Shown here piece by piece: positions 33,439 through 37,241 of a stretch of DNA of 64,000 nt (its first letter is position 1; each line of letters starts with the position of its first letter). The notes under the pieces were generated by a model. The model was not told the DNA's origin, ran no database searches, and worked only from the letters and a program-made list of their open reading frames with translations. Source of the stretch: Desulfobaculum xiamenense (GTDB lineage: Bacteria > Desulfobacterota > Desulfovibrionia > Desulfovibrionales > Desulfovibrionaceae). A program made the position numbers and the translations under genes. Where the stretch lies: assembly GCF_011927665.1 (NCBI RefSeq), contig NZ_JAATJA010000001.1:601019-665018 (forward strand), in the 5' to 3' direction.

Positions 33439-33514
33439 GGGCCAATAGCTCAGTTGGTAGAGCTCCCGGCTCATAACCGGTTGGTCGTAGGTTCGAGTCC
33501 TACTTGGCCCACCA
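33439..33514 (+). tRNA. tRNA with CAT anticodon (Met, or lysidine-modified Ile2)
   Basis: 76-nt cloverleaf with encoded CCA. Acceptor GGGCCAA / TTGGCCC, D-arm GCTC...GAGC, anticodon loop CTCATAA, T-arm GTAGG-TTCGAGT-CCTAC. The anticodon is CAT. It is not initiator-like, because its first pair is G-C. C4-G69 and C5-G68 pairs and the TTGGTCGTAGG variable/T-arm region resemble bacterial tRNA-Ile2, whose C34 becomes lysidine through TilS. Elongator Met remains possible. Confidence 0.93.
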
Positions 33515-33524
33515 ATGACCTTCA

Positions 33525-33562
33525 GGGGTTGGAAAGACGATTGTCCTTCCAACCCCTTTTTT
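33525..33562 (+). terminator. Terminator of the tRNA gene
   Basis: 10-bp stem GGGGTTGGAA / TTCCAACCCC with 12-nt loop (an inner GAC/GTC pairing is possible), followed directly by six T. Confidence 0.95.
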
Positions 33563-33610
33563 GACAATAACGAACACCACTCCGGGAACACGCCGGAACG
33601 CTTTGCGTTC

Positions 33611-33639
33611 TTGCGGAGTGCTGGCTTTTCTGCTAAAGT
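33611..33639 (+). promoter_or_regulatory. Candidate promoter of the structured RNA/leader before the Nif3-like gene
   Basis: TTGCGG (33611-33616), 17-bp spacer, TAAAGT (33634-33639), predicting a start near 33646. It is placed just after the tRNA terminator. Confidence 0.5.
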
Positions 33640-33645
33640 TTTCGC

Positions 33646-33883
33646 TTCCCGCAAGGTGGACTTTGCCTGTGGCGGGCACGGGACGCGTTGACGTCTCACC
33701 GCCAAGGGCCGCTGTGCGCGGCGTCGGGATTCTCGTATCCTCCGGCATGCGCACGATCCGTGCGGATTACGCCGGTTGGTCCACGGACCTGCCGACATCG
33801 GTCGGGTGCCCTGCGCCCCCCGCTACCGCGCGACAACAGCGGTGCTTTCCTCCGACGCGAACAGGGAAGCACCCTTCTTTTTT
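33646..33883 (+). ncRNA. Candidate ~240-nt structured RNA or attenuated leader
   Basis: The tract between a plausible promoter and a terminator with T-run is rich in local stems: TGGCGG/CCGCCA (33670-33675 with 33699-33704, enclosing GACG/CGTC), GCCGC/GCGGC, and CCGGC/GCCGG enclosing CGCACG-ATC-CGTGCG (33742-33775). GCTTCCC at 33644-33650 is complementary to GGGAAGC at 33864-33870, so the ends could close, in competition with the terminator stem. The tract has an open frame in phase with the Nif3-like gene, but its translation looks non-coding. The class is not recognised; 6S RNA is one idea. Confidence 0.4.
33841..33883 (+). terminator. Terminator or attenuator just upstream of the Nif3-like gene
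   Basis: 10-bp stem GGTGCTTTCC / GGGAAGCACC (one G-U pair), 13-nt loop, followed by CTTCTTTTTT. It ends 10 bp before the Nif3-like ATG and overlaps the region of its ribosome site. Confidence 0.8.
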
Positions 33884-33893
33884 GAGGAGCGGC

Positions 33894-34685
33894 ATGAACG
33901 TTCGTGAACTGATCGCCTGCATCGAGGAGATGGCCCCGGTATCGGGTGCCGCACCGTGGGACAAAAGCGGTGTGCAGATCGCCGGCACCATCGGCGATAT
34001 CGAAAGGATAGCCGTGACCATCGACCCGTCCCCAGCCGCCATGGCCGAGGCGCTGGAGTGGAACGCGGACTTCATCCTGACGCACCATCCTCTGTATATG
34101 GAGCCGAAGCCCCTCGACAGGCCCGGCTTCTTTCTTGATGTTGCGCGGCAGACGCTCACACGCGGGACATGGCTGTACGCGGCGCACACGTCCCTCGACG
34201 TCCGCCCCGAAGGCCCCGCGGGCTGGCTCGCACGGGAATTGGAGCTTGACGAACCGCGCGTGATGGAACAAACCGACCCCGGCAACCCCATGGTCGGCTT
34301 CGGTCTCGTCGGCAGGCTCCCCGCCCCCATGGGCTGGGACGCCTTCGCGGATCGCCTCGGCGCATGCGTGGAACGCGACTTCTGGGTCACCACGGGGCAA
34401 ATTCCCGAGCGCATCGACTCGGTGGCCTACTGCACCGGCTCTGGCGGCTCGCTCATCCCGGCCGCCGAGGCAAGCGGAGCGCAGGTCTACATTACGGGCG
34501 ACATCAAGTACCATCAGGCGCTTGAATCGAATATTTTCATCATTGACGTGGGACATTTTTCTCTGGAAGAAACCATGACGCGCATCCTGGCGGAAACGCT
34601 CGCCTCCCGGCTCTCGGGACGGCACGATGCCGAAGTCCGTTTCTTCCCCGGCCGCGAGCCGTTCGCCCTGCGCGCCGGACGATAG
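33894..34685 (+). CDS. Nif3-like dinuclear metal center protein
   Basis: 263-aa member of the Nif3/YbgI family (often named GTP cyclohydrolase I type 2 homolog), which forms toroidal hexamers with a two-metal site. Metal ligands are visible in LTHHPLYM, AAHTSLD and the C-terminal VGHFSLEE. GDIKYHQ is also conserved. The biochemical function of the family is unsettled. ATG at 33894 has GAGGAG upstream. The frame extends 111 codons further 5' to 33561 across an RNA-like tract; that part is excluded. Followed 96 bp later by the C4 zinc-ribbon protein. Confidence 0.9.
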   Translation: MNVRELIACIEEMAPVSGAAPWDKSGVQIAGTIGDIERIAVTIDPSPAAMAEALEWNADFILTHHPLYMEPKPLDRPGFFLDVARQTLTRGTWLYAAHTSLDVRPEGPAGWLARELELDEPRVMEQTDPGNPMVGFGLVGRLPAPMGWDAFADRLGACVERDFWVTTGQIPERIDSVAYCTGSGGSLIPAAEASGAQVYITGDIKYHQALESNIFIIDVGHFSLEETMTRILAETLASRLSGRHDAEVRFFPGREPFALRAGR

Positions 34686-34781
34686 GACATACGACGCAAA
34701 GAACCCGCCCACGGGGTCTTGATACATTCACGGCAGCCGCCAGCCGGCCGCCAACAGGCAACTGCCGAGGAGGAAATTCCG

Positions 34782-35561
34782 TTGAGCATGTACCTCAAGC
34801 AAATCGAACAGCTCGTCGTTCTGCAGAAGGTTGATGACGAGATCATCGTCATCGAGAAGGAACTCGAAAGCCTGCCAAAGGAGCTTGCCGCTCTTGAGGA
34901 AAAGAACGCCAAGCTGACCGAGCGCATGGAACAGACCAAGGAGCGGACCGACATCCTGCTGCACCAGCAGCGCCTGCTTGCCGACGAGATCGACAGCAAC
35001 GACTCCAAGATCAAGAAGAGCAAGAACAAGCTCATGATGGCCGGCAACACTCGCGAATATCAGGCCATGATGCGCGAGATGGACAACATGGAGAAGATCA
35101 ATCGTTCCCGCGAGGAAGAGAAGATCGCTCTCATGGACGAGATGAACCGCCAGAAGGAGCGTCAGACCGCCGCCGAGGCCGAGGCCGAGGAACTCAAGGG
35201 ACAGCTTGAGGAATGCAGCGCCAACCTCAAGAAGCGCACCGCCACGGCCAAGAAGCGTCTGACCAAGCTCCAGAAGGATCGCGAGACCGCCTGTGAAGTC
35301 ATTCCTCCGCGCGTTCTCGGTCGCTATGAATTCATCCGCGCCCGCATTCAGCACCCCGTCATCGTCCCCGTGGACGAGGCCGTGTGCAATGGCTGCCACA
35401 TTCTGATTCCCCCGCAGATCTTCAACGAACTGCAGCGCGGCGAACAGATTCTGAGCTGCCCCAACTGCCAGCGACTCATCTACTGGACCAACCACTTCTG
35501 CGCCCCCGCCGACGCTCCCGCCGCACCCGCGGCAGAGGTCGAGGCCGAGGAGCAGGAATAG
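34782..35561 (+). CDS. Coiled-coil protein with C-terminal C4 zinc ribbon (COG1579 type)
   Basis: 259-aa protein. Residues about 5-175 form a long charged coiled coil, followed by a C4 zinc ribbon (CNGC and CPNC) near the end and an Ala/Glu-rich tail. The family is often found next to Nif3-like genes, as here, and its function is poorly known; nucleic-acid binding or a structural role is assumed. The start is probably TTG at 34782, since AGGAGG lies 8 nt upstream. The ATG two codons later (34788) is 14 nt from it. Confidence 0.88.
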   Translation: MSMYLKQIEQLVVLQKVDDEIIVIEKELESLPKELAALEEKNAKLTERMEQTKERTDILLHQQRLLADEIDSNDSKIKKSKNKLMMAGNTREYQAMMREMDNMEKINRSREEEKIALMDEMNRQKERQTAAEAEAEELKGQLEECSANLKKRTATAKKRLTKLQKDRETACEVIPPRVLGRYEFIRARIQHPVIVPVDEAVCNGCHILIPPQIFNELQRGEQILSCPNCQRLIYWTNHFCAPADAPAAPAAEVEAEEQE

Positions 35562-35612
35562 TATAGGCGCACTGCGGCGTGAACCGCGCGCCGCAAAACG
35601 CCTTTGACATTT

Positions 35613-35975
35613 CGGGAGTCGGACGGGTCATCGTCGCGATCCTTCGGGATCGGGGAGGAAAGTCCGGGCTTCGCAGGGCAGGACGCTGGATAACGTCCAG
35701 GTGGAGTGATCCACGGACAGTGCCACAGAAAACAGACCGCCGGTGAAAGCCGGTAAGGGTGAAACGGTGGGGTAAGAGCCCACCAGTCGCCACGGTGACG
35801 TGTCGAGCTAGGTAAACCCCGTCCGAAGCAAGACCAAATAGGAAAGCGTTTGAGGCCGGCCCGGCTGATGCTTTCGGGTAGGTTGCTTGAGGCCGTAGGC
35901 AACTGCGGTCCTAGAGGAATGATGACCACTCCCTTCGGGGAGTACAGAACCCGGCTTACAGTCCGGCTCCCGACA
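35613..35975 (+). ncRNA. rnpB: RNase P RNA (class A)
   Basis: Catalytic RNA of RNase P, which trims tRNA 5' ends. The ends pair as P1: CGGGAGTCGGAC at 35613-35624 with GTCCGGCTCCCG at 35961-35972. The universal 5' core GAGGAAAGTCCGGGC, the internal AGGGTGAAACGGTG, the GTAAACCCC element and the 3' core ACAGAACCCGGCTTACAG are all present in order. About 360 nt, typical of type A. A TTGACA at 35604 sits too close to be its -35. Confidence 0.97.
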
Positions 35976-35989
35976 TTCAGGTCACCACG

Positions 35990-36028
35990 GACGGCGCTGG
36001 GGCTTTTGCCTCCGCGCCGTTCCTTTTT
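35990..36028 (+). terminator. Terminator of rnpB
   Basis: Stem ACGGCGC (35991-35997) / GCGCCGT (36014-36020) with a 16-nt loop, then CCTTTTT. It ends only 20 bp before the ispDF start codon. Confidence 0.8.
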
Positions 36029-36047
36029 CAAACCCCTTGCACACACG

Positions 36048-37241
36048 ATGAAAACCATGTCCGTCTGGGCCGTCATTGTCGCCGCAGGTCAGGGAACCCG
36101 TCTCGCGCGGGCGGGCCTGTCCACACGCAAGCAGTTCATCCCCTTCGAGGGCGCGCCGCTGTTCTGGAAGAGCGCCCGGACGCTGGCGCGGGTCTCCCGC
36201 GTGAAGGGACTCGTCTTCGTCCTTCCCGAAGCGGAATTCGAGGAATACGCCGCCATCGTGCGCGACCTCGCCAGCAGGGACGACATCGTCCTCCCCTGCC
36301 TCACCGTCCCCGGCGGCGAACGCCGTCAGGACTCCGTGCTGAACGGACTTCGCGCCATTGCCGAAACCTGCGACACCGTCCTCGTGCATGACGCCGCCCG
36401 CCCCTTCGCCGGGGCGCAGCTCGCCAACCGCCTCATCGACGCCGTCGAGCAGGGCGATGTGGCCGCCATCCCCGCCATTTCCGTCACGGACACCATAAAG
36501 CGCGTCACGCCCGAGGGGCTGGTGGCAGAGACTCTCCACCGTGCGGAACTTTGCGCGGTGCAGACGCCGCAGGCCTTTGCGCTGCCCACCCTTATCGCCG
36601 CGCACGAGTTCTGCAACGCCAAAGGGCTCGACGTCACGGACGACGCCTCCATGATTGAGGCCGCAGGCGGAGCCGTACGCGTCGTCCCCGGCGAGGAGAC
36701 CAACATCAAGATCACGAATCCGGAGGATCTGCGCATGCTCACCGACAACGCGCCAGCCCCGCTGCCCTGCGTCGGCTGGGGGTACGACGTCCACAAGTAC
36801 GGACTCGGCAGGCCCATGAAGATCGGCGGAGTGCCCATCGACGGCGGCCCGCAGGTCGTCGCGCACTCGGATGGCGACGTCCTGCTCCACGCGCTCACGG
36901 ACGCCCTGCTCGGATGTCTCGGCAAGGGCGACATCGGCCAGCATTTTCCCGATACGGACAAGGCCTTCTCCAACATTGAATCCGCCGTGCTGGTCAACGA
37001 GGTGCTGACCATGGCCGAAGAGGCGGAGTTGGAGCTGTGCCACGTGGACCTGACCGTCATCGCCCAGATTCCGAAACTCTCTCCCTATCGCGAACGCATC
37101 CGCGACAACGTGGCCCGGCTGCTGCGCATCGACGCACAGCGCGTCAACTTCAAGGCCACCACCGAGGAAGGTCTCGGCTTTACCGGCGAGAAGCTCGGCA
37201 TCAAGGCTGTGGCCTGCGTCACGGCGCTTCGCCACGGTTAA
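36048..37241 (+). CDS. ispDF: Bifunctional MEP cytidylyltransferase / MEcPP synthase
   Basis: 397-aa fusion catalysing two nonadjacent steps of the MEP isoprenoid pathway. IspD half (about 1-235): VAAGQGTRL nucleotide loop, HDAARPF, VPGEETNIKITNPEDL. IspF half (about 240-397): GWGYDVHKYG and HSDGDVLLHALTDALLG with the zinc ligands, GDIGQHFPDTD, KATTEEGLGFTG. The start is the ATG at 36048 or 36057; neither has a visible Shine-Dalgarno. The terminator of rnpB lies immediately upstream, leaving almost no room for a separate promoter. Confidence 0.96.
   Translation: MKTMSVWAVIVAAGQGTRLARAGLSTRKQFIPFEGAPLFWKSARTLARVSRVKGLVFVLPEAEFEEYAAIVRDLASRDDIVLPCLTVPGGERRQDSVLNGLRAIAETCDTVLVHDAARPFAGAQLANRLIDAVEQGDVAAIPAISVTDTIKRVTPEGLVAETLHRAELCAVQTPQAFALPTLIAAHEFCNAKGLDVTDDASMIEAAGGAVRVVPGEETNIKITNPEDLRMLTDNAPAPLPCVGWGYDVHKYGLGRPMKIGGVPIDGGPQVVAHSDGDVLLHALTDALLGCLGKGDIGQHFPDTDKAFSNIESAVLVNEVLTMAEEAELELCHVDLTVIAQIPKLSPYRERIRDNVARLLRIDAQRVNFKATTEEGLGFTGEKLGIKAVACVTALRHG

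Follow-up and report, generated by a model that had tools for sequence, protein, structure and literature searches.

The window, a stretch of 64,000 nucleotides from the genome of Desulfobaculum xiamenense, carries on its + strand a Vut_1 transporter gene, a tRNA gene with a CAU anticodon, the tRNA's own terminator, a stretch of ~280 nt, a further intrinsic terminator, nif3, a gene for a COG1579-type protein, and rnpB (Table 1). The promoter region upstream of the tRNA scores 10 of 12, and the tRNA's own terminator is graded strong when read from the sequence. The long antisense ORFs that cover nif3 and rnpB (- strand, 33696-34727 and 35480-36076) are mechanical candidates of the ORF list. The GGDEF genes found upstream both in the window and in a congener, G001, are 38% identical over 174 residues, the domain that both possess.

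Table 1. Features of the tRNA-nif3-rnpB locus in the window (positions in the window).
Feature	Position	Strand	Basis or remark
tRNA gene, anticodon CAU	33439..33514	+	ARAGORN calls tRNA-Met
tRNA's own terminator	33525..33562	+	10-bp stem 33525-33534/33547-33556, T-run 33557-33562; read from sequence
Weak promoter-like TTGCGG-17-TAAAGT	33611..33639	+	7/12; chance-level
Leader body	33640..33840	+	no detectable congener similarity, second genomic copy or Rfam family
Candidate leader ORF, TTG 33776	33776..33907	+	sequence, translation, start-to-stem distance like relatives
Alternative candidate start TTG 33663	33663..33893	+	AAGG 6 nt before; frame open, in frame with nif3
Conserved intrinsic terminator (candidate attenuator)	33841..33883	+	stem 33841-33850/33864-33873, 13-nt loop, T-run 33878-33883, ending 10 nt before nif3 start; fold, conservation, covariation
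GAGGAG, nif3 ribosome-binding site	33884..33889	+	sequence
nif3 (DUF34/NIF3, PF01784), ATG 33894	33894..34685	+	domain match
COG1579-type zinc-ribbon protein, start ATG 34788 or TTG 34782	34788..35561	+	PF02591 + PF24481
rnpB, RNase P RNA class A	35615..35974	+	336.5 bits

The genome has two initiator-like CAU tRNAs, two copies of another kind and the tRNA of this locus, which differs in sequence from the other four and whose kind was met once in the genome by pattern search. Its acceptor stem contains C4 and C5, which we take to be identity elements of TilS that point to tRNA-Ile2. The gene is therefore probably that of a tRNA-Ile2 (CAU) instead of the Met tRNA of the ARAGORN call.

Gene order and terminator in the family

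A Nif3 match is found in 112 of 119 Desulfovibrionaceae genomes (that of D. xiamenense included), and 110 loci were read (G079 and G088 were left out; L035, which lies on the same contig as L011, was dropped from all counts). A tRNA(CAU) in the same orientation precedes nif3 in 64 of these loci and is absent from 46. Its start lies at most 354 nt before nif3 in the relatives and 455 nt before it in the window. A COG1579 match follows nif3 in 108 loci, and nhmmer detects rnpB downstream in 97. Six of the 13 loci in which rnpB was not found have less than 2 kb of sequence after the nif3 start, and the other seven, which include all five loci of genus g26, have at least 2.2 kb. As read in these genomes, the order nif3-COG1579-rnpB is conserved across the family.

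Parts of this neighbourhood have been described. Homologs of DUF164/COG1579 (FlgZ) have nif3 upstream in several phyla; the genes depicted there include tRNA-Met, in Borrelia burgdorferi the homolog is followed by RNase P RNA (PMC3372290, whose text does not contain the word Desulfovibrio), and COG1579 is the COG that co-occurs most frequently with COG0327 (PMC8469502). Unlike the unit presented here, the neighbourhood as treated in the relevant passages of these two papers has no leader ORF or attenuator named in it. The combination of tRNA, leader ORF, terminator and nif3 was not recognised in the literature among the matches listed, which does not establish its absence from print.

The intrinsic terminator that precedes nif3 was called complete in the earlier note, and of all the pieces that the note assembled it is the only one that clearly exceeds chance. 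Its local fold in the window has an energy of -17.9 kcal/mol (z -2.76). The terminator scan does not list it because that scan is restricted to loops of 3-8 nucleotides. When the upstream regions of the window and G001 are aligned, the terminator and the ribosome-binding site match, and none of 500 shuffles aligns as well. Across the family, a hairpin with a T-run is positioned directly before nif3 in 76 of 110 loci, 55 with the tRNA and 21 without it (score of at least 20, counting stems that end no more than about 45 nt from the nif3 start). As a control, 5 of 153 ORF starts in the examined part of the window's genome have an equally scored hairpin just upstream. An alignment of 57 of the 76 hairpins, chosen to thin near-copies, has 92.4% of its pair cells paired, with two-sided changes at 10 of the 12 pairs; judged from these sequences, the nif3-proximal hairpin is covarying in the relatives.

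The terminator is thus kept in 21 of the 46 loci devoid of the tRNA, although some of these are weak (L133 is at the threshold) and one, L173, retains part of the tRNA. In the latter, a locus of genus g22 (G119), the tRNA can be recognised by its 3' part alone, as if the 5' part had been replaced or interrupted by an insertion. Three other g22 loci, L169, L170 and L172, have neither tRNA nor terminator. Conversely, nine tRNA-linked loci lack a scored terminator: L007, L016, L120 and six of genus g8. Genus g8 was scored separately, and L016 has no terminator by that scoring either. At 121-141 nt in g8 and 81-275 nt in several members of the order, the stem is located far before nif3, which may therefore be transcribed from a separate promoter in these cases.

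The stem itself is not special to this locus. A hairpin model run against the window's genome, with 150 of the 1358 first-look candidates taken to scoring, yields at least three other places with a hairpin of this kind at E<=0.001, all of them between convergent ORFs. Because similar hairpins occur between other genes, it is the position of the stem and not its sequence that marks the nif3 locus. In several genera (loci L149, L151, L153, L154, L155, L157, L160, L165, L167, L171, L176 and L178), a further hairpin, GGGG-(G)AAA/GAAT-CCC, is nested with small internal loops in the terminator stem, an elaboration that a plain terminator does not require.

The leader frame in relatives

The linkers that connect the tRNA to nif3 in the relatives read as an AGGA-like sequence followed by TTG and a stop-free frame. 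A Shine-Dalgarno (SD) sequence, a start codon and a frame open into the terminator are present in 44 of the 55 tRNA-linked family loci, compared to 5.3 in dinucleotide shuffles. A looser frame limit with SD spacings of 5-10 gives 45 (5.9 shuffled), and widening the spacing to 4-10 gives 50 (6.3 shuffled). Weighted by genus, the leader frame is present in 18.7 of 23 against 1.9, or 19.7 against 2.1 with the 4-10 spacing. These counts are not independent of the SD-start rule, since the rule was formed on the same loci. The 55 loci include the window (L005), which is positive through TTG 33663, and L188, the linker of which is identical to that of L185. Both were left out of the frame-opening and start-to-stem counts and kept in the leader-frame counts; L188 was also left out of the other-tRNA and pairing counts and kept in the codon-position test, and the window was kept in the other-tRNA counts.

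If the first SD-start (spacing 4-9) is taken regardless of its frame, it is missing in 5 of 53 loci, and frame 0 is open in 47 of the remaining 48, frame +1 in 24 and frame +2 in 41; the linker is stop-poor, and frame +2 is open almost as often as frame 0. The leader frame is absent under either rule from three of the 23 family genera with the usual terminator (g49, g22 and g2), and g8 has it in none of six loci. For other tRNAs (30 loci in six family genomes), a start within 45 nt is found in 2/47 and one within 120 nt in 7/47, whereas the nif3-linked values are 40/63 and 54/63, respectively. Loci with the terminator and no tRNA have a leader ORF in five of 21 cases, with 2.3 expected, which is no clear enrichment.

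Beyond the family, order-level loci that were fetched later have the leader frame in 10 of 17 tRNA-linked cases, with about 1.0 expected. The ten positives belong to families f2 and f5, with distances of 51-63 nt, and five of them are from one genus; the frame is found in 0/5 loci of family f3, 0/1 of f4 and 0/1 of f6. Five tRNA-less loci (L266, L267, L268, L270 and L276) and six g8 loci are excluded from the 17, and one of 23 order genomes has no Nif3 match. The SD rule is older than this count, and the frame limit and the terminator scorer were set after the loci had been viewed. The looser frame limit did not decide the ten positives, because all ten run into the hairpin.

The distance from the leader start to the stem is narrow (median 61 nt, IQR 58-63, range 40-91, n=48), while that from the tRNA to the start varies from 10 to 114 nt. 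The start is TTG in 36 loci, ATG in eight and GTG in four, and this interchange favours a start codon over a -35 box. The frame ends before the hairpin in three of the 48 loci, inside it in seven, between hairpin and nif3 in nine, and in an overlap with the nif3 start in 29. The encoded peptide is under no visible selection. Pairwise changes number 358, 376 and 339 at codon positions 1, 2 and 3 (46 loci of 12 genera; the starts in g26, g3 and g52 were set by eye, and L153 and L157, in which no start was found, were left out), so there is no codon-position signal, and it is only the start, the frame and the spacing that argue for the leader ORF. Even substitutions combined with a preserved start, frame and spacing fit an ORF that may be kept for the act of translating it. 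No attenuator of the trp or his type is apparent: inspection by eye finds no common codon run in the peptides, and pairing with the 3' arm shows no family-wide excess.

Taken from the compared loci, the conserved unit in the Desulfovibrionaceae is a tRNA(CAU), an SD sequence and start, a frame of ~20 codons that enters an intrinsic terminator, nif3, COG1579 and usually rnpB.

The tract before nif3 in the window

The tract upstream of nif3 in the window had been proposed to be a structured RNA or an attenuated leader, driven by a credible promoter and closed by complementary ends. The promoter boxes do exist (TTGCGG at 33611-33616, a 17-nt spacer and TAAAGT at 33634-33639), but 82% of shuffles reach their score, and a promoter scan of the window, which needs 9 of 12, does not list them. 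The ends, GCTTCCC (33644-33650) and GGGAAGC (33864-33870), are likewise complementary, but with a shuffle p of 0.07. In 75 related loci, the longest complementary stretch has a mean length of 4.96 nt (4.58 in shuffles) and reaches p<=0.05 in six, so there is no family-wide excess; in G001, a 7-nt match to the 3' arm of the terminator has a p of 0.02. Given the p value in the window and the lack of an excess in the 75 loci, a switch in which the end pairing competes with the terminator stem is unsupported.

A structured leader RNA, a 6S-like RNA or a riboswitch would account for the local hairpins of the tract, for the 7-nt matches to the 3' arm in the window and in G001, and for a whole-leader fold that is slightly better than those of shuffles (z -1.94, equalled or bettered by 10 of 200 shuffles). 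However, Rfam 15 contains no 6S, riboswitch or T-box model that matches the leader at the gathering cut-off or at E<=10; the two matches that it gives (E 4.1 and 6.4) are chance matches, neither to a riboswitch. The 6S RNA of this genome (RF00013) is encoded on another contig (G000:C2:283064-283247, 84.4 bits). In G001, the sole congener compared, nothing similar to the leader body was detected (p 0.50 for the alignment of the two), and the competing pairing shows no excess in the family. When the tract is searched by BLASTN in 59 genomes, its own among them, the one match apart from itself is the terminator part in G001, and a second copy of 33564-33840 was sought in the genome and not found. 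Within the reach of this one congener, the leader body is not a conserved structured RNA, because only the region of the terminator and the ribosome-binding site aligns: 33611-33840 is indeed not conserved, and the terminator is. Neither a 6S-like RNA nor a riboswitch is supported, and we consider any such RNA highly improbable here. Local alignments that would indicate a decayed tRNA or a duplicated tRNA promoter in the leader are no better than those of shuffles (p 0.94, 0.40 and 0.17). Alignment of the leader body with the linkers of L010, L013, L008, L026, L116 and L012 shows no significant similarity either (p 0.12-0.78).

Two starts in the window could open a leader ORF. TTG 33776 is preceded by a weak GGA (33764-33766), which fails the 4-mer rule used for the relatives, and lies 65 nt before the terminator stem. 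Its frame runs through the terminator to a TGA (33905-33907) inside nif3 and out of frame with it, as in many relatives. TTG 33663 has a better ribosome site, but it is 178 nt away from the stem and has a shuffle probability of 0.16. Since neither ORF is significant in the window alone, the claim for the window is restricted to the conserved terminator and a possible leader ORF. The window is a divergent member of the family: it clearly retains the terminator, the one part retained for certain, its tRNA is closed off by a terminator separate from this one, and its leader ORF is a candidate.

TTG 33663 could instead be the start of an N-terminally extended Nif3. Its AAGG and a frame free of stops up to nif3 would suit such a protein, whereas the GAGGAG of nif3 itself, an ATG position common to the relatives and the chance probability of this start argue against it. 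The codon score of the extension, -0.25 compared to a mean of 0.13 for coding pieces, also speaks against it, although the 5-95% range of coding pieces reaches down to -0.39. We give an extended Nif3 very little credence. In the earlier note, the open frame was judged unlike protein; the codon scores of the leader frame are not coding-like, but the score ranges of coding and off-frame pieces overlap widely, so this is a weak test.

A candidate translation-sensitive attenuator

The conserved element may be a translation-sensitive transcription attenuator that precedes nif3-COG1579-rnpB and is similar to that of E. coli pyrBI, a reading to which we give an even chance on the strength of comparative sequence analysis. 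RNA polymerase would transcribe the tRNA(CAU), followed by a short leader ORF that has a Shine-Dalgarno sequence and mostly a weak TTG start; about 60 nt past that start, the polymerase would reach the intrinsic terminator, which directly precedes nif3. In the default state, this terminator would end the tRNA transcript. A ribosome that loads early, and translates the leader close behind the polymerase, would cover the 5' arm of the hairpin, so that termination would fail and nif3, COG1579 and possibly rnpB would be transcribed by read-through. The weak TTG start would presumably render the device sensitive to initiation, and in the 29 of 48 loci where the leader ORF runs into the nif3 start, this overlap could couple the translation of the two. 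In the window, transcription of nif3 would start at the weak promoter or come by read-through. Of the attenuated leader suggested originally, the conserved intrinsic terminator directly before nif3, kept in some lineages that have no tRNA, survives, and the switch by end pairing does not.

As in pyrBI of E. coli, a short leader ORF contains the terminator: at the family level, 45 of 55 loci have a leader ORF with a ribosome-binding site that reaches the terminator, and an intrinsic terminator lies between the leader start and the first structural gene. Unlike in pyrBI, the leader follows a tRNA gene, starts mostly with TTG and would serve nif3-COG1579 and probably rnpB. The tyrT tRNA operon of E. 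coli also carries a small frame, the tpr ORF, towards the 3' end of its tRNA transcript; we know of no role of tpr in attenuating a downstream gene. At premature 3' ends linked to upstream ORFs in E. coli, such as that of mdtU-mdtJI, translation of the upstream ORF affects premature termination, but mdtJI employs Rho and an upstream ORF with a conserved C-terminus (PMC7815308). The unit described here has an intrinsic terminator and a peptide without conservation.

A strict version of the attenuator reading is weakened by the tRNA-less loci, because they keep the terminator without a clear enrichment of the ORF, and the leader ORF is also absent from seven of the 17 order-level loci. Alternatively, the hairpin could be an ordinary terminator of the tRNA, with nif3 expressed by constant partial read-through or from its own promoter and the hairpin in the window being a leftover. 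The lack of a clear ORF enrichment in the tRNA-less loci, the same-strand tRNA upstream of nif3 in 64 of 110 loci, the similar hairpins between other genes of the window's genome, and the distance of nif3 from the hairpin in g8 and some members of the order all point in this direction. A plain tRNA terminator, however, would not be expected to persist in 21 of 46 loci that have no tRNA, nor to be, together with the ribosome-site region, the only part that aligns between G001 and the window, and it leaves the SD-start frame at its narrow distance from the stem unexplained. We regard this explanation as rather unlikely. The conservation of the SD sequence, the start and the open frame, together with a peptide similarity visible within some genera, could also be taken to mean that the tRNA transcript gives rise to a functional small protein, the product of the leader ORF. 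This is very unlikely in our view, as changes are spread evenly over the codon positions and most frames read past the terminator (no more than three of 48 stop before the hairpin, with seven stopping inside it), which would leave the terminated RNAs without a stop codon.

RNase P is the enzyme that processes tRNAs, and tRNAs are its substrates. A ribosome-gated attenuator embedded in a tRNA transcript might, by way of a leader ORF whose weak start would sense translation initiation, set the output of a gene group that ends in the RNase P RNA, so that translation status and tRNA processing would feed back on rnpB; we regard this extension as improbable.

If the attenuator reading is correct, many genera of the Desulfovibrionaceae would possess an unannotated leader ORF and attenuator that operate within a tRNA transcript and are controlled by translation. 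The start, frame and spacing of this ORF would be conserved while its peptide is not. The device would lie in front of a pair of widely distributed genes whose function is unclear and, at most loci, of the RNase P RNA gene as well, and it would offer a direct handle on the response of nif3-COG1579, and perhaps of rnpB, to translation.
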